Both the position numbers and the translations under genes were made by a program. The notes below the pieces were generated by a model. The model was given only the letters and a program-made list of their open reading frames with translations. It was not told the DNA's origin and ran no database searches. From the IMG/VR virus record IMGVR_UViG_3300012189_000009, positions 1 through 28,053 of that record: a DNA stretch of 28,053 nt. The stretch is one strand, 5' to 3'. Source of the DNA: a virus. Numbering within the stretch: position 1 is the first letter of the stretch; every line of letters begins with the position of its first letter. Shown here piece after piece: positions 4,502-15,309 of the stretch.

Positions 4502-4671
4502 CGGATTTTCCCCGCCAACCGCAACCAGTGATCGTGTCTTTCAAAGGAGAGCCCGAAGATATAATAGAGTGGTATCGTCGATTGAAAAGGTCTGCTGAAT
4601 ATAAGGGAGACCTAGTTCAAGAGAACGACCACATTTCCTTCACGATTCATCCAAGAGCCGTTAATGACTAG
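4498..4671 (+). CDS. Hypothetical small protein, 57 aa
   Basis: This ORF starts at ATG 4498 in an ATGA overlap with the previous gene and ends at TAG 4671, eight bases into the UDG-exonuclease gene. The protein MTDFPRQPQPVIVSFKGEPE continues with EWYRRLKRSAEYKGDL and a beta-like end. No family recognised. It fills the only gap between its two neighbours and is coupled at both ends, which supports it being translated. Confidence 0.6.
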   Translation: MTDFPRQPQPVIVSFKGEPEDIIEWYRRLKRSAEYKGDLVQENDHISFTIHPRAVND

Positions 4672-5707
4672 CATCGCCATCGTCGGCGAAGCTTGGGGCG
4701 CTGAGGAAGCCAAGCAGCGCTCTCCCTTCGTTGGCGGCTCTGGCTACGAACTAACGAAGATGCTCTCCGAGGCCGGGATTCACCGAGCAGACTGCTTCCT
4801 CACGAACGTATTCAACATCCACCCTCCAGGGAACGATCGCTCTTGGTTCTGCGGGCCGAAGGAGGAGGCGATCCAAGGTTATCCCAAGCTCCTCAAGGGC
4901 AACAAGAAAGACTTCAACCACTACCGCGGGGACTACGTTCGTGGAGAATTCACGCCGGAACTTGAAAGGCTTTCCGATGAGCTTCTTGCGGAAGATCCTA
5001 ATATCGTCATTGCGTTGGGTAATACTGCGGCATGGGCGCTCCTTGGCAAGACTACTATTAGCAGATTGCGAGGGGTTACAGTCTTATCAACTCACACTTG
5101 TAGTGGATTCAAGATCCTCCCCACCTACCATCCAGCTGGAATACTACGCCAATGGGCGCTACGACCGATTGGAGTTGTAGACCTCGGGAAGGCCCTTCGC
5201 GAATCCACCCACCCAGAGATCATCCGCCCTAAGCGAGAGATCTGGATCGAACCAACCTTGGAGGACATCTATGACTTTCACCGAAAGTTTATCGAAGGAG
5301 TTCCACTCGTATCTATCGATATTGAGACAAGCGGAAACCAGATTACTTGCTTTGGAATTGCTCCTTCAAGAGCAAGGGCCTTGGTTATACCGTTCCGTGA
5401 CGGAAGAAAGCTGGGGGGAAACTATTGGGCTACTAAGGATATTGAACGAGAGGTCTGGGCGTATATCAGAGGAGTTTGTGAAGATCCAAGACAGGGAAAG
5501 ATCTTTCAGAATGGGCTCTTCGACACCGCTTTCCTATTTAGAGCCATGGGAATAAGGGTCGCGGGGGCGGAGGAGGATACGATGCTGCTTCATTATAGTT
5601 TGCAGCCAGAGAGCCTGAAGGCTCTTGGATTTCTAGGCTCGATCTACACCGACGAGGGCTCTTGGAAGGACATGCGGAAGAGGAAAACGACGAAGAGGGA
5701 TGAGTGA
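4664..5707 (+). CDS. UDG-like domain fused to N-terminal half of a DnaQ-type exonuclease
   Basis: 347 aa, two domains. Residues 1-180 look like a family 4/5 uracil-DNA glycosylase: GEAWGAEE (8-15), PFVGGSGYEL (21-30), TNVF (47-50), ALGNTAAWALLG (117-128) and YHPAGILR (155-162). The N-terminal Cys pair that helps hold the Fe-S cluster in family 4 enzymes is missing. Residues about 190-347 begin the 3'-5' proofreading exonuclease of a family A polymerase: Exo I SIDIETSG (D219, E221), Exo II FQNGLFD (N283, D287) and EEDTMLL (D305). The chain stops before Exo III, which is found in the polymerase gene downstream. A UDG-like domain on a PolA-type polymerase is known from SPO1-type phage enzymes. 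Here the same order is kept but the protein is broken inside the exonuclease. Together with the polymerase ORF it should form one replicative enzyme. Confidence 0.8.
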   Translation: MTSIAIVGEAWGAEEAKQRSPFVGGSGYELTKMLSEAGIHRADCFLTNVFNIHPPGNDRSWFCGPKEEAIQGYPKLLKGNKKDFNHYRGDYVRGEFTPELERLSDELLAEDPNIVIALGNTAAWALLGKTTISRLRGVTVLSTHTCSGFKILPTYHPAGILRQWALRPIGVVDLGKALRESTHPEIIRPKREIWIEPTLEDIYDFHRKFIEGVPLVSIDIETSGNQITCFGIAPSRARALVIPFRDGRKLGGNYWATKDIEREVWAYIRGVCEDPRQGKIFQNGLFDTAFLFRAMGIRVAGAEEDTMLLHYSLQPESLKALGFLGSIYTDEGSWKDMRKRKTTKRDE

Positions 5708-5852
5708 TATGGAACACGAGATTGGCGATAAATGGTTAAATCTTATATCAGGACTTGAATACGAATGGGATGGTGAAAAGTGGGTTAGTACGGAGGAGTA
5801 TCCATATGGAACTAACCCAATGGGCTTCCTCGGTGATGGAACCCAACAGTGA
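5700..5852 (+). CDS. 50-aa ORF inserted between the two parts of the DNA polymerase
   Basis: ATG 5700 overlaps the end of the exonuclease gene by eight bases, and a second in-frame ATG at 5709 has GAGGG upstream. TGA 5850-5852 overlaps the GTG start of the polymerase gene (GTGA). The protein begins MSDMEHEIGDKWLNLISGLE and continues with a W-D-G-E-K-W-V stretch. It is acidic, with no cysteine pairs or HNH/GIY-YIG motif, so it is not a recognisable homing endonuclease. The exonuclease and polymerase ORFs are in one frame, but the bases between them contain several in-frame stops, so no simple readthrough can join them. Its place makes it either a linker gene or a moron-like insertion. Confidence 0.6.
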   Translation: MSDMEHEIGDKWLNLISGLEYEWDGEKWVSTEEYPYGTNPMGFLGDGTQQ

Positions 5853-7333
5853 AGATAGTACACACTGATAGGCTAGGTCCTACACGGCTTAATGCCTGGG
5901 AAAGGGATCAAACGTACAATGGCCTCGACGCCTCCATCACCTTCGAGCTTCTCGAAGTGCTTCGACCACAGTTAGACAATTACACAGATGCGACGTATCG
6001 GTTCTCAAAGGAGCTTCAGGGGCCGGTGCTTGAGATGCGGCTTAGAGGAGTGCTGGTCGACAACGAACGAAGATTGGAAGTCCTCGAAGCCTACCACGAA
6101 CTTCTGGACCGACTCGAAACCCAACTTGAGAGGATCGTCCGCGAAGGTCTAGGGATAGTCAACTTCAACTGGCGCTCGCCGCCACAACTACAGGAGGTTT
6201 TTTATGGAAAACTTAGAATTCCACCTATCAAACGACGTGGCTCTATTACCGTCGATCGAGATGCTATTGAACGAATGGAAGAGTATCTTATCGCAAGACC
6301 AATCCTCTCCCATCTTACAACAATGCGCGATATCGCTAAAAAGATCTCCGTACTCAAAACCGAGATTGATCCTGATGGTCGAATTAGGACCTCCTACAAC
6401 ATCGGGGGAACAAACACAGGGAGGCTTAGTTCAAGTCTATCGGAATTTGGTACGGGCGGTAATCTCCAAAACATCGAAGACCTCCTCCGATCCGTCCTCG
6501 TCGCCGATCCAGGAATGAAGATGGGGTACTTCGATGCGGAACAGGGGGAAAGTCGTGTCGTGGGTGGGATCGAGGTCCAACTCTTTGGTGACAGTAAGTA
6601 TCTCGACGCCTGTGAATCGGGGGACCTACACACCACGGTGGCGAAACTTGTCTGGCCACGACTTCCTTGGACGAATGATCTTGCGGCTGATAAGATCCTC
6701 GCCGAACAGCCATATTACCGTCACTATTCGAGACGGTTTATGTGCAAGAAGATTGGTCATGGGACCAATTACGGGGGCAAGGCCGCGACGCTAGCGCAGC
6801 AAGCGAAGGTGGAGATTGAGTTGATTCAGGAGTTTCAACCGATTTACTTCCGGACTTTCCCGGCGCGCTTAAGGTGGCACGCACATGTCGAACGAACAAT
6901 TCAAGAAACAGGTACAATTGTCAATCTTACTGGCCGCAAGCGTCAGTTCTGGGGTCGAAGAAATGATCCTGCGACCATTCGCGAAGCCATTGCATATGAT
7001 CCACAAGGATCGCTTGCCGATATCGTTAACCGTGGAATGCTTGCCGTCTGGAGAAATCGTTGTGCCCAACTTCTCATGCAAGTCCACGACGCCATCGTAA
7101 TCCAATACCCTGAGGAGGAGGAAGCGGATGTTATCAAGAAGGTCCTTCGGCTTTTGCCTTGGCCTATTCCCATTCGGGATAGGCAGCTTGTCATCCCCTA
7201 CGGAGTTAAGACCGGCTGGAATTTTGGAGAGTTCGATGCAAAGACAAACCCGGCTGGGCTCAAGTCCTACAAAGGGACGGACAAACGGCAGCGCCCAGCG
7301 AAGGTGTCGATCTTGGATAGAAAGTTTCGTTGA
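5849..7333 (+). CDS. Family A DNA polymerase, C-terminal part (Exo III plus polymerase domain)
   Basis: 494 aa. It starts at GTG 5849, coupled to the previous stop. Residue 23 begins YNGLD (Y23, D27), the Exo III motif of the proofreading domain, so the exonuclease active site is completed by this chain. The polymerase domain follows: TNTGRLSSS (188-196), GNLQNIE (204-210), motif A FDAEQGESR (D229), motif B R296-x3-K300-x3-H304-x3-Y308-G, the QGSLADIVNRGM helix (386-397) and motif C QVHDAIV (H413, D414). Two departures stand out: His at the place of E. coli Pol I Phe762, and Ala in place of Glu in the HDE of motif C. Both catalytic aspartates are present, so the enzyme should be active. The last 98 bases overlap the helicase gene. 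This is the replicative polymerase of the phage. Confidence 0.9.
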   Translation: MKIVHTDRLGPTRLNAWERDQTYNGLDASITFELLEVLRPQLDNYTDATYRFSKELQGPVLEMRLRGVLVDNERRLEVLEAYHELLDRLETQLERIVREGLGIVNFNWRSPPQLQEVFYGKLRIPPIKRRGSITVDRDAIERMEEYLIARPILSHLTTMRDIAKKISVLKTEIDPDGRIRTSYNIGGTNTGRLSSSLSEFGTGGNLQNIEDLLRSVLVADPGMKMGYFDAEQGESRVVGGIEVQLFGDSKYLDACESGDLHTTVAKLVWPRLPWTNDLAADKILAEQPYYRHYSRRFMCKKIGHGTNYGGKAATLAQQAKVEIELIQEFQPIYFRTFPARLRWHAHVERTIQETGTIVNLTGRKRQFWGRRNDPATIREAIAYDPQGSLADIVNRGMLAVWRNRCAQLLMQVHDAIVIQYPEEEEADVIKKVLRLLPWPIPIRDRQLVIPYGVKTGWNFGEFDAKTNPAGLKSYKGTDKRQRPAKVSILDRKFR

Positions 7334-8459
7334 GGAAACTGAAGGGCTGGAGAGCCCGGAGGTTTACCGCAGGTGGGCAGCGATAGTTGCGCTAGGCGCT
7401 GTGCTCCAGCAGAAGGTTTGGATCAATGCGAAGCAATCGCCGCTGTTCCCGAATCTTTACTCCTTCCTAGTAGGCCCTCCAGGGATAGGAAAGTCGCAGA
7501 CGATCGGGGCGATAGGGAAGTACCTCAGAGAGGTAGACGGCCTCCACATCGCATCGACCTCCACGACAGGGGCAAGCTTGATCGACGAGCTAGACAGAAA
7601 AGGCTCCGTCAACTACTCAGTTGGGTTGCGCGACGAAGACCATATTAACTTTAACTCTATGCTCGTCATGCCCGACGAGCTTTCAGCGCTTATGCACGAA
7701 TACGATCGCGCCTTGGTGGCTGCTCTTACAACCTTCTACGATGTCCAGCCTTACTCACAAACTCGCCGAGTTGCAAAGGTGGAGATTGATATCCCACATC
7801 CGCAGCTTTCTATCCTCGCAGGAACGACCACTTCCTACATGATGAAGATCATCCCGGAAGGCGCTTGGGATCAAGGGCTGATGGCGCGGACGATCTTGAT
7901 CTTCTCGGAGGATCGTCCGCTGAAGGATGATATCTTCTCGGCAAGCGCAACCCCTCATTCGGAGGACCTAGCTCATGACCTTCTATCAATCTTTGGCCTC
8001 CAAGGCCCTTGCCGCGTTACTGATCCTTACCGCGCTGCCTACAACGCTTGGAGACAAGCCAGTTGCGCTCCTGCCCCAACTCATCCTCGACTCAAGCACT
8101 ATTGCGCTCGACGAGGCGCTCACTTACTCAAGCTTTCTATTATCGCAGCAGTCGATACTGGTGATGACCTGTCGATCGGCAAAGAGCACTTCGACCGCGC
8201 GCTTGAGTGGCTCACAGGTGCAGAGCGCCTCATGCCCTACACTTTCCAAGTAAGCTCGAGTGTGGACTCTCGAGCGCTGGAGGAAGCGATTCATTTTATC
8301 GGGGGCCGAACCGTCTCGCAGACGCAGCTGGTCCACTTCCTTTCAGAAAGGGTTCCGCTAACGACGGTTCAGCGATCGATCGATCTAATGGTGGGAAGTA
8401 GGATGGTCTTAATCGCTGGGCAAGATCGGGACGGGCTGAATTACTTCAAGCTTCCCTGA
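7236..8459 (+). CDS. DUF3987-like phage helicase/ATPase
   Basis: 407 aa from ATG 7236, which has TTTTGGAGAG four bases upstream. Earlier in-frame ATGs lie deep inside the polymerase gene. The first 25 residues look unusual and recognisable homology begins at SWIESFVEETEGLESPEVYR, so the true start may be later and non-canonical. Walker A is GPPGIGKS (80-87), Walker B MLVMPDEL (142-149), a polar sensor strand ILAGTTTSYM (193-202) and an arginine-finger-like QGLMARTILIF (213-223). The N-terminal layout matches phage DUF3987-type ATPases, which commonly stand where the replicative helicase would be. No primase zinc domain is seen. It closes the replication block and runs into the convergent virion block, overlapping the opposing gene by 19 bases. 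Confidence 0.75.
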   Translation: MQRQTRLGSSPTKGRTNGSAQRRCRSWIESFVEETEGLESPEVYRRWAAIVALGAVLQQKVWINAKQSPLFPNLYSFLVGPPGIGKSQTIGAIGKYLREVDGLHIASTSTTGASLIDELDRKGSVNYSVGLRDEDHINFNSMLVMPDELSALMHEYDRALVAALTTFYDVQPYSQTRRVAKVEIDIPHPQLSILAGTTTSYMMKIIPEGAWDQGLMARTILIFSEDRPLKDDIFSASATPHSEDLAHDLLSIFGLQGPCRVTDPYRAAYNAWRQASCAPAPTHPRLKHYCARRGAHLLKLSIIAAVDTGDDLSIGKEHFDRALEWLTGAERLMPYTFQVSSSVDSRALEEAIHFIGGRTVSQTQLVHFLSERVPLTTVQRSIDLMVGSRMVLIAGQDRDGLNYFKLP

Positions 8460-8734
8460 CGCTCAAGGGTATTGAAGATCCGAGCGAATGTGTCATCCGT
8501 TCGCTTCGTGCTTAGCGTCATCATTTCTCGAATAGACGCAATCTGATCCTTCTGGACCGCAACGGCCTGAAGGGTCTCTTCTATTTTATTGATTGCCATC
8601 TTGGTCTCCTCCAGCTGCTTCGAGTGAGCCTCGAACTTCTCTCCCATACGTCCGAGCTTGAATAGAATAGTCCCTCCTGTAGCAAGGAGGCCAAGGAGCT
8701 CTGCGCCTAGACGGATCTCGTCAGGTATTTGCAC
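8441..8734 (-). CDS. Small membrane protein with coiled coil, possible lysis accessory
   Basis: 97 aa, last gene of the virion block. It starts at GTG with GGAGG five bases upstream (CCGGAGGCCAAG). Residues about 8-27 (RLGAELLGLLATGGTILFKL) are a membrane segment. The rest is a charged helical region with heptad-like spacing (MGEKFEAHSKQLEETKMAIN and beyond), likely a coiled coil. This one-membrane-segment plus coiled-coil build resembles i-spanins and some holin-like phage proteins. No partner o-spanin lipobox gene is seen next to it. Its 3' end overlaps the convergent helicase gene by 19 bases. Confidence 0.65.
   Translation of the reverse strand: MQIPDEIRLGAELLGLLATGGTILFKLGRMGEKFEAHSKQLEETKMAINKIEETLQAVAVQKDQIASIREMMTLSTKRTDDTFARIFNTLERQGSLK
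8444..8477. terminator. Imperfect hairpin at the convergent gene junction
   Basis: Outer arms CTTCAA (8444-8449) and TTGAAG (8472-8477) enclose an inner CCCT (8454-8457) / AGGG (8466-8469) pair with an 8-base loop. It lies exactly where the two gene blocks converge and where their coding ends overlap. There is no strong U-run on either strand. It is a candidate weak bidirectional terminator. Confidence 0.3.
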
Positions 8735-8750: not shown

Positions 8751-9407
8751 TTAGAAGCGATAGCTTAGACGACCACGGACGAGATCAATAGGCGACCGAG
8801 TGCCGATCGTTTGCGTACCAACCGTCAGGCTTGGCCCATCGAGATCGACGTGAAGATACTCAGCACCGATCACGATATTAGGACCGAGTGCGTATTCCGC
8901 GCCGCCACCAAGAGTCCAGCCGACCGCTGGCGTAGTAGCCACAAAGGCATCGTTACCGACTTTGACATGTCCGTAGGCAACACCGCCGGTTCCGTAGATC
9001 AGGAGATATTCGGTGACTAGGAAGCCACCGCGCAACCGTGTGGTGCCGAGCCACGGCAAGGTGGTCTCAACGCCATTGGCGGTATTCTTGAGGCCGGTGA
9101 TAGAGAAGTCAGTCTCGGCTCCGACCACTAGCATACCAAACTGGTAGTTGTAGCCAAGATGTCCGCCGCCGATTACACTGTTCGCGCTGTGCTTGACAGA
9201 TTGAGACTTGAAATCCGCAAAGGGATCGGAGTCGTTGAAGTCAGCGATGAAGTCAGCGCCGCCGTAGCCAACGCTAGCGCCGAAGTACAGCCCGCACCAT
9301 TGGCAAGTCGGCGAGGACGTGAGCGGAGCCTTCAATTGCTTGAGCGGAAGATCCGCCGAGAAGGCTGGGGTGGCAAGGAGGGTTGAGAGAAGAAGGAACT
9401 TACGCAT
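8751..9407 (-). CDS. Phage-encoded outer-membrane beta-barrel protein (Rhizobiales type)
   Basis: 218 aa, starting at MRKFLLLSTLLATPAFSADL with AAAAGGAGAAAGCAA upstream; earlier in-frame Mets lie inside the neighbouring gene. A signal peptide ends at about residue 18 (AFS-A). It is followed by CQWCGLYFGASVGYGG (about 36-51), the first strand of the small porin-like/OmpA-like barrels abundant in Bradyrhizobium and relatives. Alternating strands and Gly-rich turns follow (NSVIGGGHLGYNYQFG, TRLRGGFLVTEYLLIYGTGG, WTLGGGAEYALGPNIVIGAE), ending VRGRLSYRF with the C-terminal Phe expected of an outer-membrane protein. It is probably inserted into the host outer membrane late in infection. It sits in the lysis-end cluster. 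Possible roles are superinfection exclusion or receptor masking, which is inference. Confidence 0.8.
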   Translation of the reverse strand: MRKFLLLSTLLATPAFSADLPLKQLKAPLTSSPTCQWCGLYFGASVGYGGADFIADFNDSDPFADFKSQSVKHSANSVIGGGHLGYNYQFGMLVVGAETDFSITGLKNTANGVETTLPWLGTTRLRGGFLVTEYLLIYGTGGVAYGHVKVGNDAFVATTPAVGWTLGGGAEYALGPNIVIGAEYLHVDLDGPSLTVGTQTIGTRSPIDLVRGRLSYRF

Positions 9408-9699
9408 TTGCTTTCTCCTTTTCGAGTGCTTCGTACTTTGCCGCTTGCCCTTTCTGATAGGGCATCCATTGAGCATAAGGCTCTCCCTCGTTAGGCATAG
9501 CGTCATCCTGAAGAAGTTTAACCGAAGTCTTCCTGAAGAACATCCCATTGTGGTCATAAACCACAAGGTTAACTAGCCGGTCATTCCAAACGTAAACTAC
9601 CATCGCGTGAAATGGTTGTTCGTCTTTTCTAACAGCTTGGGTAAGATCACAACTGTTTGGCGTGTACCAAACCATTCGACCAATAGTTGGTGTGATCAC
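9400..9699 (-). CDS. Conserved small phage protein, 99 aa
   Basis: It starts at GTG 9699, coupled (GTGA) to the upstream membrane-protein gene. The pattern begins MITPTIGRMVWYTPN and continues MVVYVWNDRLVNLVVYDHNG then RKTSVKLLQDD. I have seen this layout in many phage proteins of unknown function near lysis genes: a short beta fold with an invariant DRLVNL-D-G centre. The C-terminal tail is polar and helical (KGQAAKYEALEKEKANA). Its stop overlaps the start of the barrel gene. No function can be assigned from sequence. Confidence 0.75.
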   Translation of the reverse strand: MITPTIGRMVWYTPNSCDLTQAVRKDEQPFHAMVVYVWNDRLVNLVVYDHNGMFFRKTSVKLLQDDAMPNEGEPYAQWMPYQKGQAAKYEALEKEKANA

Positions 9700-9944
9700 T
9701 TCACTCCTCCTTCAGGGACCTTAGGTGGCTCCGCTGGCGCTGGCCCCTTCGAGGCGCTAGCGGAAGATCCGAAGTAGTACCCGACGACAAGCGCGGCCAT
9801 GTTCCCGAGATTTCCGATAAGGACGGAAAGAACCTGCATGGTCTCCCCCTGCGCCATTGGCGGGTAATGAATGTAAGACATAACGACGACCACGTAGGAG
9901 AATACGACGAGGCCGCCGACGAGATAACCCATTGTGCCGATCAT
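9696..9944 (-). CDS. Holin-like two-membrane-segment protein
   Basis: 82 aa from MIGTMGYLVGGLVVFSYVVV, placed by AGGAGGTATTAAT directly upstream; the longer frame reaches back into the giant virion gene. Segment one is at about residues 5-24, segment two at about 38-55 (VLSVLIGNLGNMAALVVGYYFGSS). The tail is Ala/Pro/Lys-rich (SASKGPAPAEPPKVPEGGVK). The ending GYYFGSSASASKG is common in small phage holin-like proteins. Its position right after the virion genes and before the envelope proteins suggests a holin, but no conventional endolysin gene is beside it. Confidence 0.65.
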   Translation of the reverse strand: MIGTMGYLVGGLVVFSYVVVVMSYIHYPPMAQGETMQVLSVLIGNLGNMAALVVGYYFGSSASASKGPAPAEPPKVPEGGVK

Positions 9945-9945
9945 A

Positions 9946-12900
9946 TTAATACCTCCTCGGATGCACATGCCCTCTAGCGAGGAGCCTGAATGCATCCCAA
10001 CCCGTCTGCGGTCGTTCCTGCCCTGTTAGCCACCGATGGAAGCCCGCCGCTGTCATACCTATTTGTTCTCCTGGAAGGCCACCAGTGAATATTCCAATGC
10101 CACCAAGGCCTTGTTGGATAAGAGAGGACTTCGTCTTTGGCGAAAGCTTTCCGTGGCTTCTAGTAGCCTCGTCAATTGCCTTTGACCCTTCGACAAGGGC
10201 ATGATAAATAGTTTGCAGACCTGAACCAGCAATGCCGAACGCGAAGTCCCCGCCTGTCTCCAAACCATAGGCGATGTCTCTAACCAATGGGTAAGGAGCG
10301 GTACCAGCACGAAGAAGGAAGTCTGCAACTTTTCTCCCCGCTCCTTTCTTCACTTCTCTTGGGTCGTCCCCTTTCAAAGCTTCCTCAACATAATGCTCAA
10401 CAGCACCGATAATAAGCACCGTTGAAGCCAAGAGATAAACGCCTCTAGCATTCTGCTGGAAGCCCTTTTGCCATTCACCCTTTGACCAACTATCCCAACC
10501 GTACTTCTGCCTCCACATGGACTCGTCAAAGGCCTGTGCGACAGTATTGAACCACCCCATGTAGGACGTGTATAGCTGAGAGATAGGGCCACCTAGCATA
10601 ATTGGGGCCTTCCTCGCCGGATTAGCGCTACCGTGGGCCTTGACGACAGCTGTATCGCCTTGTAACTTGGCGAATTCTATATCCCCTGTCTCTCGGTAGA
10701 CTTTGTTAAACGCAGCGAGCCAAGTCGGACGTGTTGAGATGGCATCAGAAAGCGCAACCATGCTTCGACCCAGCCTTTGCCCGAGTTCGATAATTCCAGC
10801 CTTGCCAGTCACCTGCTCCGTGGCGCCAGTTATTGTGTTTTCCCAGAAATTATCCCGCTGAGGAATCTCCCGACTATTTTCATTGACGAATTGCATGTTC
10901 TTATCGCTGATATGAAGAGGCCCACCAAGCAATTGCGTCGAGGCCCACAGAAACTCGATAGGTCCTACCTCCACGATACTTCGCATCAAAGATGAAGGCC
11001 CGTGCTTCATTGGAGTGCTGAGCCTAAAGTTTAGCGTGTTACCAACGACGTTCTTTCGGTACCAAGCTAGAGGCTTATAAAATGCTGCTTGCGATTTAGT
11101 TGGGGGAGTTCCAGAGTTGGACAAGCTCTTAAGCCACTCTTCCATAAGCTGTAGGACTTCTGGGTTGTCGTACATTCGAATCGCTCGACGAAGGTCTTGA
11201 TCTCGAAGAGCCTTAGCAAACTCCCGAACAGGCCCACGGATGGCAATGTCGTGGATCATCTCAGTCATTGAGGACTGAACGACGCGATTGAAGTCCAACG
11301 ATATTGGATAGGTAGCTCCTGTTCGTTCCTTCTCGAAGCGTCTAGGGGTGGAGGCTCTAGTGTACTCACGGCCTTCGAGGTTGAAAGCTTCGGCCTGCGG
11401 CTTCCCTTCCCACATATAGTGTGGCATTAACTTTTGATAACCGCCTTCGTAATGCTTCCCCCAAGGAGTGTCGAAGCCTTCAAGAGGAATGTTCTCAGCC
11501 GGAACGTCGCTTTCTGCAACAGCGTTTACATCCGCTCGGCGCTTAAGCTCTTTGGTGATCTTATCCCAATAGTTCTGCATCCAGTCGAAGTCTTTAGGAG
11601 AAAGCGTTCTAAAGAGCCATTGGCGAATGCGCTCAACGTCTGGCTTCCCATCAGGAGTTCGAAGGTTATAGCCTGAAGCGAGCTTCGAGGCGTTACTCAA
11701 GTTCCCCATATTCGCCAAGACCGCCATTGCATCAAGGTGGGTCATGGGAATGTAGTATTCAATCCCGTCCTTCAACTTATCAGGATCTAGGAACAAGTCA
11801 TTGTCTACCTTCGCACCAGGCTTACCAATCTTTCCAAGGCTACGATAGATCTTGGAGAACTCCTTCGTCATCTCCATCCTGTGGTAGCCGCCTGCAATCA
11901 ACGGATTCGCCAACCACTCAGTGAAGACGTTCCTTGGATTCCCTCTAGCCCATCGCTCAAACACGCGCTCGGTGGTGATATTGGACCAATAAGCCATCCT
12001 GGCTGCGTGGAATATGCTGTAAGTTGGAGTTTCGTTCAAAGGCACATTCCCTGGAGGACCAAGGGCTTGCAGATACTCTCGACCGGCGTCGACCAAGTCC
12101 TTTCGATCAATGGCTTCGCCGGCTTTGTAGACCTTTTCGGAATCTCTTCCCCGCTTGATCAAGGTGCGGATAGAGTAGTTAAGCGCTCGAAACTCTCCGA
12201 CAGTCATGTCCTTGACATTCTTCGTCTTGGAGGAATCGCGAAGAAACTCAGCCACAGGAACGTCCCAGCCCTCAACTCTAGAAAGGTGATCGACGAACTC
12301 ATCGAGGGATTTATATCCGCTTCGATCTATCGCGTCCTTGAGGTCCTCCGGACTTCTATTGACCTGTTTTCCAACTCGGCTGAGGATATCGTGAATGAAG
12401 TTGGTATGCTCGATCGGAAAGTTCGCAACCTCCCGAGACCGCCACCGCTTAGCATTCCTATCGAACTCCTTCCCTTCCTTTTCCACCGCACGCATCTCTT
12501 TCGCTTGCGCAGTAAGGAGGTATTGATTCTGCATGGCTTGGAAGGCTTCGAGTTCCTTCCCAACGCCAATGGCCTTCTCGATCTTGCGGAATTCCGTCGC
12601 GGCCTGATTCAGCAGCTTAATCGCCGACTGCTTCGCGTAAGGCTTGCCCTTTAGAAGCTCCACCGCTCCCCAATCCATCGCGGCCTTATTAAGCGGAAGG
12701 GCTCCGCCTAAACGGGTGCCGAGGGCGAGGACTTGCTCGTGCAGCATCTCCATCGTGGAGAGAGAGAGGGCTTGGTCAATCTTGTCATCAAGGACTTCCT
12801 TAGGAGTCTTTCCAAGCTTTTCTTGAAGAACCCTCTGGACTTCTGCTTTGACTAAGCGGTCGACAATGTCCCCCTTGCCTGCGGCTGCCTCGTCGGCTAC

Positions 12901-15309
12901 GCCCTGAAGAGCGCGGAGGAGATCTGCCCCTGTAGAGAAGCCGAACTGACCTGCGGCATCGTCGGGATGAAGTCCTCCAGGACCAACAAGTTCCGGAAGG
13001 GCCTGAGCCTGCGCCAGGGTGAGCTCTTGCGGATCGAGCTTGACCTTCTTCAGCCGCGTCCACGCAGCGATCATAGGATTAGCGAGGACGCCTGCGCGAA
13101 TGTCTGGCTCGATCTTGGCCGCTTCTTCCTTCCAAGCGACGGAGGCTTCGAGCTTAGCCTGGGCTTCGCCACGGCGCTTGAGCCATGCTGCGTCGTCGTT
13201 CGTTTGCTCTTCGATAGCCTTTAGGAGGCGCTCGTATTCCTTCTGGGTGCGCCCGAAGGCTTGGCCCTTTTCGAAGGGGAGAGAAGGCTCAGATTCTGGT
13301 AAGGCTTTATCGAAGCCAGCCTCTAAGATTGCCCCCTCAGTGCCGATGGGTAAAGGCTCTCTTTTAGTAGGACGGCCGGAGCGGCTGCGCTCAAGAACCT
13401 TGGATATTAAAGGCTCATTAGCTGCCAAACCTATAGCTTTGCGAAGTGAATCGACGACGGGGTCTTGCGTTATCTCAACGCCAGCACCAGTTACCTTTGG
13501 TACCCCTTGTATGTCACCTAAGCCGCGCAAACCATGTTCTCTTAAAAGCTTCTCATCCCCTCTACTGGCTACGCCTAAGCGAAACCGCTCAATCGCATTC
13601 CGCACTTCATCCGGCGCTTTTTCAAACTGTTCGAGATTCCAGCCAAATAATTCTTTCTCAACCCTATCCGGAGGCTTTTTCGCAACCTTGCGGAAGGAGG
13701 CTACGACTGGATCACCAAGCTCAAGGCCAAGTGATTCGCGTGATAAATCTATTGCTTCCTTCTGGGTAATTATCCTTCCCCTAGAGGTCTGAAATAGATT
13801 ACGCTTACTGCCACCAGGGTCAACCCCACCATATTCCTTGAGAGCTTCATTATAAGCTCCAAGGTGTGTATCGCCTGTATATACTTTACCACCAACCTCC
13901 ACCGCATGTGTGGCCACTTGTTCAGGTGGTTCTTCCTTTACTAGTTTCAGCCCTTCAAGCTCATTTTTCGTCATCCCTCCCCTTGACACAAAATCCTTGA
14001 CCTCCGACCAAAGCTCCGGATCGAAGTTAGCGATAAAGTCCTTGGCCGAGACTTCGACCTTTCCTTCAGGGACGCCAACGGACGGGATCCACTTGAACGC
14101 ATCTGGGAACTTAAGGATAGCCTCCTTCTCAATCGCGATCGTTCCTTGAGGGTGGTGGTCAAGGAACTCGGCGAACTTCTCCGGGCTCCGCTCCTTTAGC
14201 GCCGTTGCCTTAGCGTCGTCGATGGCTTCTTTGATGATGTCTTGATCGAGCTTGGCTTGCTCCTCCCGGCCTTTATCCGCAATCTGAGAGATCCCCGCGG
14301 GAGGCTCTTCGCCAGCTTCGGCCCAAGGACGGAGGGTTTCGGCCTCCTTGGCGATAGCTTCTAGTTGTTGAACAAGTCCGCTGACATCCATCCCCTCAGC
14401 TTGAACTCGCTGAAACCAGGGGGCGAGTGTTTCCTGGAAGCGCTCAAGTGGGCCTTTGATAATTCCTTTAGGCAGCGCCGCCGCTGCGCTTGCTGCACCT
14501 ACCCCTTGGAGAAACCCCCTCCGACTCATATCCGTCGGTTCGCCTTCAATCGTCGGCCCGGGCTCCGGTAAGCCCTCTATGGGTGGAGGCTTAGCCTCAG
14601 GGGGAAGGATCTCGCCTTCGCGAAGCTCCATCCCTTGCGGCCGACCAACCCGAAGTCCGGCAGAAACCGCCATTGCAACAGCTAGAGACTCACCAGCAGT
14701 CTCAGAAGTAATATCTCCAGATAGAATTTGTCGATGGAGCTCGCCGGTAAGAGCCTTTTCAGTAAGCCTTTGCGCAGCTTGAACCAAACCAACGGTCGAG
14801 TTCCAAAGCAGGGAGGAAGTAACTGCTTCAGGAACCCTTGTGGCAAGGCCCTTCTGCCGCCCTGCCCAAGGTCTAGCCGCTTGTGCCAGCCGTTGTGCTG
14901 CAGCTTGGAATGGAATAGGGTCGAAGTCCTCCGAAGGCGCAGATGCTTGGGCGTAGGAGGAATAGACTGTGCCAAAGGGATGCCAACTTGTCATCTTGGA
15001 GTAACTAGAAGAGAACTGATCCAAGGCTCCAAGGTCGTCCTTGATCAAGGCAGGGTGGAGCGGATGGGCATTGAGGAAGGAGGTAATCGCAGGGCTTTGC
15101 CGAGTGATCTGGCCGCCGAGATGGGTCTGGAAGTCCTGCTCGAATTGGTCCTTGTTATTGGCGATGGTAGTCGCGTCGACGCCTGAGGCCTTGCTAAGTT
15201 CGAAGGCGCGAGCTGCGTCGTCTGGACTATGCTCGGCAACGCTCAAGCTGCTTGCGGCAGAAGCGAGGAAGGCTTTGCGAGATTCGTCGAAGTCGTAGAC
15301 GTTGCTCAT
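9946..15309 (-). CDS. Giant internal virion (ejection) protein, 1787 aa
   Basis: It starts at MSNVYDFDESRKAF in an ATGA overlap with the preceding virion gene. Very long, mostly helical and charged, it sits after gp14-like and M15-peptidase virion proteins, the place of T7 gp16, so it is probably carried in the capsid and ejected with the DNA. I see no transglycosylase motif. A twin-arginine-like segment, SRRGFLQGVGAASAAAALPK, lies at about residues 262-281, far from the N-terminus. Near residue 1620-1640 is a membrane-like stretch, YLLASTVLIIGAV. A GGYQKLMPHY stretch, reminiscent of the GGYYP-type segment of large phage polyvalent proteins, lies in the second half, and the C-terminus has the GLPGEQ-type ending seen in such proteins. 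The large-polyvalent link is weak inference. Confidence 0.75.
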   Translation of the reverse strand: MSNVYDFDESRKAFLASAASSLSVAEHSPDDAARAFELSKASGVDATTIANNKDQFEQDFQTHLGGQITRQSPAITSFLNAHPLHPALIKDDLGALDQFSSSYSKMTSWHPFGTVYSSYAQASAPSEDFDPIPFQAAAQRLAQAARPWAGRQKGLATRVPEAVTSSLLWNSTVGLVQAAQRLTEKALTGELHRQILSGDITSETAGESLAVAMAVSAGLRVGRPQGMELREGEILPPEAKPPPIEGLPEPGPTIEGEPTDMSRRGFLQGVGAASAAAALPKGIIKGPLERFQETLAPWFQRVQAEGMDVSGLVQQLEAIAKEAETLRPWAEAGEEPPAGISQIADKGREEQAKLDQDIIKEAIDDAKATALKERSPEKFAEFLDHHPQGTIAIEKEAILKFPDAFKWIPSVGVPEGKVEVSAKDFIANFDPELWSEVKDFVSRGGMTKNELEGLKLVKEEPPEQVATHAVEVGGKVYTGDTHLGAYNEALKEYGGVDPGGSKRNLFQTSRGRIITQKEAIDLSRESLGLELGDPVVASFRKVAKKPPDRVEKELFGWNLEQFEKAPDEVRNAIERFRLGVASRGDEKLLREHGLRGLGDIQGVPKVTGAGVEITQDPVVDSLRKAIGLAANEPLISKVLERSRSGRPTKREPLPIGTEGAILEAGFDKALPESEPSLPFEKGQAFGRTQKEYERLLKAIEEQTNDDAAWLKRRGEAQAKLEASVAWKEEAAKIEPDIRAGVLANPMIAAWTRLKKVKLDPQELTLAQAQALPELVGPGGLHPDDAAGQFGFSTGADLLRALQGVADEAAAGKGDIVDRLVKAEVQRVLQEKLGKTPKEVLDDKIDQALSLSTMEMLHEQVLALGTRLGGALPLNKAAMDWGAVELLKGKPYAKQSAIKLLNQAATEFRKIEKAIGVGKELEAFQAMQNQYLLTAQAKEMRAVEKEGKEFDRNAKRWRSREVANFPIEHTNFIHDILSRVGKQVNRSPEDLKDAIDRSGYKSLDEFVDHLSRVEGWDVPVAEFLRDSSKTKNVKDMTVGEFRALNYSIRTLIKRGRDSEKVYKAGEAIDRKDLVDAGREYLQALGPPGNVPLNETPTYSIFHAARMAYWSNITTERVFERWARGNPRNVFTEWLANPLIAGGYHRMEMTKEFSKIYRSLGKIGKPGAKVDNDLFLDPDKLKDGIEYYIPMTHLDAMAVLANMGNLSNASKLASGYNLRTPDGKPDVERIRQWLFRTLSPKDFDWMQNYWDKITKELKRRADVNAVAESDVPAENIPLEGFDTPWGKHYEGGYQKLMPHYMWEGKPQAEAFNLEGREYTRASTPRRFEKERTGATYPISLDFNRVVQSSMTEMIHDIAIRGPVREFAKALRDQDLRRAIRMYDNPEVLQLMEEWLKSLSNSGTPPTKSQAAFYKPLAWYRKNVVGNTLNFRLSTPMKHGPSSLMRSIVEVGPIEFLWASTQLLGGPLHISDKNMQFVNENSREIPQRDNFWENTITGATEQVTGKAGIIELGQRLGRSMVALSDAISTRPTWLAAFNKVYRETGDIEFAKLQGDTAVVKAHGSANPARKAPIMLGGPISQLYTSYMGWFNTVAQAFDESMWRQKYGWDSWSKGEWQKGFQQNARGVYLLASTVLIIGAVEHYVEEALKGDDPREVKKGAGRKVADFLLRAGTAPYPLVRDIAYGLETGGDFAFGIAGSGLQTIYHALVEGSKAIDEATRSHGKLSPKTKSSLIQQGLGGIGIFTGGLPGEQIGMTAAGFHRWLTGQERPQTGWDAFRLLARGHVHPRRY

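Follow-up and report, generated by a model that had tools for sequence, protein, structure and literature searches.

Phage-encoded and cellular relatives of the barrel

Lom of lambda and Lc of phage PA-2 are outer membrane (OM) barrels encoded by phages. The barrel described here is, like them, carried by a phage, but it has no match to their families and lies in a lysis-type cassette. Among cellular proteins it resembles the small OM proteins of the Hyphomicrobiales (PF13505, Omp25/Omp31 type) in its Pfam match, its eight predicted strands, its signal peptide, an Ala-Asp mature end and a terminal Phe; it differs from them in that the best cellular identity found is 47% and in that it sits in a phage cassette. 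Peptidoglycan-linked (PG-linked) OM barrels were reportedly described in Brucella and Agrobacterium by Godessart and by Sandoz in 2021. According to the available portions of a review (PMC12729407) and of a second paper (PMC11527210), OM proteins of the Hyphomicrobiales are attached to peptidoglycan via an alanyl-aspartyl motif (the review), LD-transpeptidases tether them in Agrobacterium (the second paper), and the PG-linked proteins support envelope integrity in this order (both). The N-terminal alanyl-aspartyl motif of the Brucella and Agrobacterium barrels, as given in those portions (PMC12729407, PMC11527210), is common to the barrel studied here, which differs in being phage-encoded and for which a covalent link is putative.

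Two-component spanins, such as Rz/Rz1 of lambda, also have an OM component encoded beside holin-like genes and genes for a protein with a transmembrane segment and a coil (TM+coil), as far as the available part of a spanin survey goes (PMC6139136), and in some phages related through their capsid the interval that holds a barrel in relatives holds a lipoprotein. They differ from the present case in that their OM component is a lipoprotein, whereas here it is a barrel with a TM+coil partner of putative role. The word 'barrel' is absent from that survey and from a survey of lytic proteins (PMC12596118), and no report on PF13505-family OM barrels in phage lysis cassettes was found among the titles and abstract openings searched, a coverage in which most subscription journals are missing. 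In the accessible text of a paper on Melnitz-like methylophages (PMC9004378), the authors propose lysis roles for CsgGF, a phage-encoded OM pore, and this is the nearest published idea found; CsgGF belongs to the curli CsgG family, unlike the PF13505 barrel. In a Caulobacter phage, a lipoprotein o-spanin encoded in another frame accompanies an i-spanin of the ordinary kind (PMC13001222, available part), so a barrel is no general rule among alphaproteobacterial phages.

The barrel gene and its surroundings

The window, that is, the whole stretch of DNA analysed, comes from a soil phage and makes up a virus record 28,053 bases long. The neighbours of the barrel gene (Table 1) are phage genes, including those for tail proteins (phrog_394 and phrog_376) and a family A DNA polymerase. 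Relatives of a tail protein occur in 190 of 50,697 phage records, including Pseudomonas, Bordetella and Caulobacter phages, and the type of barrel suggests that the host belongs to the Hyphomicrobiales.

Table 1. Features of the barrel gene and of the genes around it
Feature	Position	Strand	Basis
OM beta-barrel gene, 218 aa	8751..9407	-	coordinates, translation, Pfam, predicted structure
Signal peptide, residues 1-17	9357..9407	-	read by eye from sequence
Ala18-Asp19, predicted mature N-terminus	9351..9356	-	sequence
Shine-Dalgarno-like AGGAG ahead of the barrel ATG	9415..9419	-	sequence
TM+coil gene, 97 aa, next gene after the barrel	8441..8734	-	homologues downstream of barrels in unrelated phages
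99-aa gene, phrog_2293 (unknown function), 8-nt overlap with the barrel start	9400..9699	-	PHROG match
99-aa holin-like gene	9696..9995	-	two hydrophobic stretches by eye; weak PHROG/Pfam matches
DUF3987 primase/helicase-like gene, convergent with the cassette, marking the end of the late strand	7128..8459	+	Pfam, PHROG

The barrel gene is complete, its 218 codons running on the minus strand from the ATG at 9407 to the TAA at 8753-8751. The signal peptide ends in PAFS, followed by ADL (cleavage site read by eye), and the final residue is a Phe. The protein matches PF13505 (OMP_b-brl, E 2.4e-14, 54.3 bits for a cut-off of 28.7), but no PHROG profile, and at E <= 0.01 neither the Ail/Lom family profile nor a porin profile (general porins, Lc) is found among its Pfam matches, in a protein of 218 aa and eight strands. 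Its AlphaFold2 model, built on 48 aligned sequences, has a mean pLDDT of 85.4 and predicts eight long strands closing an eight-stranded barrel with a C-terminal aromatic residue. Among the top VIA-align matches of this model is the transmembrane domain of OmpA (9fzd; Z 18.2, rmsd 2.4, 160 residues), the first row being an OmpA model with a Z of 19.1 but an rmsd of 14.6, and the fold is common with Ail (Z 14.5). The presumed outer-face loops are short in the model (8, 2, 4 and 8 residues, from the strand limits). The protein is probably a complete barrel of the rhizobial PF13505 type located in the OM. This agrees with the original prediction of a full-length barrel with signal peptide and terminal Phe, and also with the likeness to rhizobial surface barrels proposed there; folds of this type abound in Hyphomicrobiales.

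The cassette of the window consists of the holin-like gene, the phrog_2293 gene, the barrel and the TM+coil gene, in this order. The lipobox scan of the late strand (7954-28053) took all three frames because the Caulobacter o-spanin lies in another frame; it gave no candidate for an OM lipoprotein with a lipobox, as in two-component spanins. The earlier placement of the barrel among lysis-end genes is fair as far as location goes, although none of the genes in the window could be identified as an endolysin.

Several other features of the window were noted. The polymerase (4664-7333, plus strand) matches only the later part (803-1236) of the 1445-position profile phrog_17, and a separate 347-aa gene upstream resembles, by eye, a uracil-DNA glycosylase plus an exonuclease, as if the polymerase were split. 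A giant late protein of 1796 aa has in its interior, at residue 271 (14503-14526, minus strand), a Tat-signal-like SRRGFLQG with an Ala-rich stretch after it, and the same motif is conserved at residue 258 of the 1777-aa homologue in L005. A scan with the primase as query found no relative.

Relatives and origin of the barrel

It had been proposed that the barrel was captured from the host, and that its phylogeny against rhizobial barrels and the occurrence of related genes in other phages should be checked. Other phages do carry related genes: IMG/VR contains seven viral contigs with a relative at 64-73% identity, among which two pairs are near copies of each other. Rarity in phages, also claimed, is true of cultured phages by sequence (tblastn gave a single match among 50,697 phage records, gp27 of Agrobacterium phage Rivra, at 32% identity), but viral databases do contain structural relatives labelled as OM barrels in other phages; phage-borne barrels as such are therefore not new. 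Scans with the L230 barrel returned near copies only and those with alignment A8 only loci found before, and the L150 and L230 barrels had no match when searched against phages.

In cellular genomes, patterns of the close family matched 65 stretches among 84,980 species genomes, none of which encodes a relative, and a broader profile gave relatives of at most 38% identity among the matches listed. Whole-genome searches at E <= 1e-30 found relatives in 1 of 397, 2 of 391 and 0 of 385 sampled genomes; the best identity among them was the 47% mentioned above, in searches where at most seven candidates per genome were scored among the rows shown and the host genus may be missing. A quick tree was made with 120 of 140 proteins (9 were identical to others, and 11 were removed manually for being short, truncated, of odd length or near copies), besides two alignments, A6 and A7, of 48 and 31 chosen rows. 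In this tree six phage barrels form one virus-only group (SH-aLRT 98), whose neighbours are two other viral rows and the 47% cellular barrel. Recent capture from the host is not supported, and was rejected in the form in which it was proposed because no close cellular copy was found in the sampled genomes, the 47% of the best cellular match comparing with 64-73% among phages.

The nearest cellular barrel (L145, on contig 123 of genome G420) adjoins HigA-like and phosphoribosyltransferase-like genes, as read from their translations, with no obvious phage gene or evident prophage. On many further viral contigs (within L101-L143) the barrels are more distantly related and have no lysis context. 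Some of these barrels are identical to chromosomal Pseudochrobactrum genes (L101 to L021, L107 to L044), so some of the viral contigs may be prophage calls with host flanks.

Lysis-type cassettes in four phage backgrounds

Lysis-type cassettes with a barrel of the superfamily occur in four phage backgrounds, the usual order being holin-like gene, barrel, TM+coil gene, where 'holin-like' is judged from size, hydrophobic stretches and position, with weak or absent family matches. The first background comprises the window and L005 (polymerases 78% identical, giant proteins 31-33%); the second, with terminase phrog_38 and major head protein phrog_1357, includes L003, L006, L007 and others; the third is formed by L009 and L102, and the fourth by L230 and L231. 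None of the records of L102, L230, L231, L005, L009 and the window, of which the last three are short fragments, contains the second background's capsid protein. The polymerase of the window was found in L005 and, distantly, in L102 (at most 32%, in pieces), and was not found in L009, L230, L231, L003 or L150.

The cassette of L003 has a CHAP-like endolysin (19.8 bits in Pfam, under the cut-off of 26, but phrog_1259 at E 1e-21) and a 69-aa holin-like gene, and that of L006 a GH108 endolysin and a 111-aa two-TM gene; in L102 a 203-aa gene without a Pfam match stands in the endolysin position, followed by a two-TM gene. L005 has a 66-aa holin-like gene and a 68-aa gene, and L009 an 89-aa holin-like gene. 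In these five the barrel and a TM+coil gene come next, and the L230 cassette contains a phage lysozyme, a holin-like gene, the barrel, a 251-aa gene and two TM+coil genes. The barrel overlaps the upstream gene, start with stop, in 12 of 19 phage loci, by 4 nt in ten of them and by 8 nt in the window and L005. The Rivra barrel is outside a lysis cassette, away from the lysozyme gene of that phage; it has no cassette with holin-like and TM+coil genes and fails the TM+coil rule described below.

Separate transfer of barrel and phage background was considered and rejected, as AU tests did not reject a single clade either for the window and L005 (p 0.256) or for L003, L006 and L007 (p 0.297). The case for exchange therefore rests on the genes common to unrelated phages and not on tree conflict. 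Just before their lysis cassettes, L009 (5556-5777, E 1.5e-13) and L159 (4828-5052, E 1.2e-14) encode Acb2/Tad1 hairpin proteins (PF24729), which are known anti-CBASS sponges.

The TM+coil gene as a probable companion of the barrel

A TM+coil gene is the next gene in all six close phage barrels, in 12 of 14 capsid-lineage barrel loci and in 5 of 84 cellular barrels; the difference between 12/14 and 5/84 has a Fisher p of 6e-10. The rule was nearly the same for the capsid-lineage loci and the other sets, and L003, L006 and L007 belong to both phage sets. L176 has no TM+coil gene, and in L150 it sits further on; among other viral barrels the rule accepts 5 of 32, of which only L102 looks real. 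This rule was loosened after stricter versions had failed on close phage loci, which makes the contrast between phages and cells somewhat post hoc. One stricter version missed one of five close loci as well as the window and accepted 1 of 84 cellular barrels, another accepted 4 of 6 and 2 of 84, and the cellular rate stays low under every version.

The TM+coil protein of the window is 52.5% identical to one of the unrelated phage L230 (E 2.7e-31) and also matches that of L151, from the capsid lineage (E 1.7e-14), and in the tests made these phages have neither capsid nor polymerase in common. The gene seems to travel with the barrel as its companion. It also occurs in other company: L160 has it without a detected barrel, its relatives adjoin a barrel in L165 and L230 and a lipoprotein in L168 (L168 to L230, E 2e-4), and the proteins of L167 (lipoprotein cassette) and L007 (barrel cassette) both match phrog_19911, with a weak mutual alignment (E 6e-5). 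The third background has a TM+coil family of its own (L009 to L102, 32.6%) that does not match that of the window, despite the L009 barrel being 64% identical to the window barrel.

None of the TM+coil proteins matches a spanin family above chance, Rz-like PHROGs giving E values of 0.05-0.09, and none has a Cys in the coil. Their N-tails are acidic in most cases, whereas those of the three known i-spanins are net positive. A firm i-spanin label, considered for this gene, was dropped as unproven; the acidic tails argue against it, as would a cytoplasmic coil, the placement given by a crude and unreliable positive-inside count (see below).

Barrels and lipoproteins in the capsid lineage

Loci were also sampled on the basis of the second background's capsid protein and not of the barrel; 80 of 140 relatives were kept and, with two duplicates out and L003 added, 79 were analysed. 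With the barrel profile, a barrel is found between the portal and capsid genes in 14 of them, the weakest, L165 and L176 (E 1.7e-7 and 1.1e-6), entering only after the profile was rebuilt with proteins from this slot. The slot protein of L158, which is 16-26% identical to all rows except its near copy, is also modelled as an eight-stranded barrel (pLDDT 75.5; NspA, Z 17.5). Leaving aside 26 loci with short intervals and no barrel, the 53 scored loci comprise 14 with a barrel, 9 with a lipobox protein, 30 with neither and none with both. A firm exclusion between barrel and lipoprotein was rejected for lack of significance, p being 0.09, and 0.17 after merging near copies and dropping one doubtful case. 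L181, L168, L179 and L167 have a holin-like gene, then a lipoprotein, then a TM+coil gene.

Possible function of the barrel

The occurrence of related barrels among the lysis genes of several unrelated phages suggests a job in the final, outer-membrane stage of lysis over a chance capture from the host, and the barrel reads best as a gene of the lysis cassette. It would be made late, exported and inserted into the OM of the host, where a short N-terminal tail, with Ala-Asp at the mature end, would face the peptidoglycan and might be cross-linked to it by host LD-transpeptidases. In such a scheme the barrel would take the place held in other phages by an OM lipoprotein (the o-spanin), which it perhaps replaces, and the OM would fail once the endolysin has cut the wall, the barrel serving the outer-membrane step. 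That it is an o-spanin-like or other direct factor in OM disruption is the favoured but tentative proposal, quite possible but somewhat short of probable. In its favour, barrel cassettes occur with different endolysin types (CHAP-like, GH108 and phage lysozyme), a TM+coil gene usually follows the phage barrels and has homologues in unrelated phages, no scored capsid-lineage locus combines barrel and lipoprotein, the barrel often overlaps the upstream gene, and even the divergent slot protein of L158 is modelled as a barrel. Against it stand the loci with neither barrel nor lipoprotein (30 of the 53 scored), the non-significant exclusion between the two, the loosening of the TM+coil rule and its few acceptances among other viral barrels, the Rivra barrel, the lack of an identified endolysin in the window and, for the analogy with o-spanins, the need for an i-spanin partner, when no TM+coil protein matches a spanin family above chance, most have acidic N-tails and none has a Cys in the coil. 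The mature end weighs on both sides. Ala-Asp is found in 17 of 19 phage barrels, many only about 20% identical to each other (Ala and Asp are each kept in 18, L003 having Thr-Asp and L166 Ala-Gln), and the window barrel is predicted to carry it at residues 18-19, as PG-tethered OM proteins of the Hyphomicrobiales do; cellular barrels have it just as often (12 of 12 compared), so the motif was kept, not gained, in the phage proteins.

The persistence of Ala-Asp could also mean that extra PG-tied barrels hold the OM until the holin triggers and thereby set the time of lysis. The overlap of the barrel with the upstream gene and the contribution of PG-linked proteins to envelope integrity in the accessible parts of the literature (PMC11527210, PMC12729407) fit such a stabilising role, but relatives with a lipoprotein, or with neither protein, manage without a barrel, and we regard it as improbable. 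The TM+coil gene might be a holin accessory (XhlA-like), the barrel only marking a cassette of envelope genes. Acidic N-tails are consistent with this, as is a crude positive-inside count, which assigns a cytoplasmic coil to 18 of 19 TM+coil proteins from barrel cassettes, and the two variants with a C-terminal TM would likewise have their coil there; the same count would misplace lambda Rz and P2 LysB, two of the three known i-spanins, and the family matches speak neither way, which leaves this a possibility of limited weight. As it concerns the neighbouring gene and is compatible with the other readings, the confidences given here overlap.

Masking or replacement of the receptor, so that infected cells and debris bind no more phage, is a role known for other phage OM products and lipoproteins, namely Lom, Lc and T5 Llp, and two cassette lipoproteins weakly match the PHROG of the superinfection-exclusion protein Cor (E 0.02 and 0.07). 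The short predicted loops, the recurrent site beside holin-like genes and the linkage to the TM+coil gene make such shielding rather unlikely for the barrel, and receptor replacement, superinfection exclusion and adhesion fit its position and loops less well than lysis does. Finally, a host gene could have settled at a permissive site as a moron or passive cargo with no part in lysis: hosts have many members of the superfamily (a single Bradyrhizobium genome gave 15 matches) and Rivra carries its barrel away from its lysozyme gene. Set against this are the virus-only close group, the same slot in unrelated phages and the persistent TM+coil neighbour, and we consider it quite improbable.

Significance for phages of barrel-anchored envelopes

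In a wider and more doubtful form, the lysis proposal would define a new class of lysis factor, an OM barrel that is tied through Ala-Asp to the peptidoglycan by host LD-transpeptidases and replaces the lipoprotein o-spanin, barrel and TM+coil neighbour moving together between unrelated phages. Equally doubtful at present, this class would belong to phages whose host bacteria anchor the OM with barrels and not with Braun's lipoprotein. How phages breach an OM anchored in this way is a question to which no answer was found in the literature searched. The holin-like gene, the barrel and the TM+coil gene make up a gene set that is directly testable. A barrel acting as o-spanin would, if true, explain the empty lipobox search on the late strand of the window, and a barrel in the place of the o-spanin would be a new solution to the breach of the OM.
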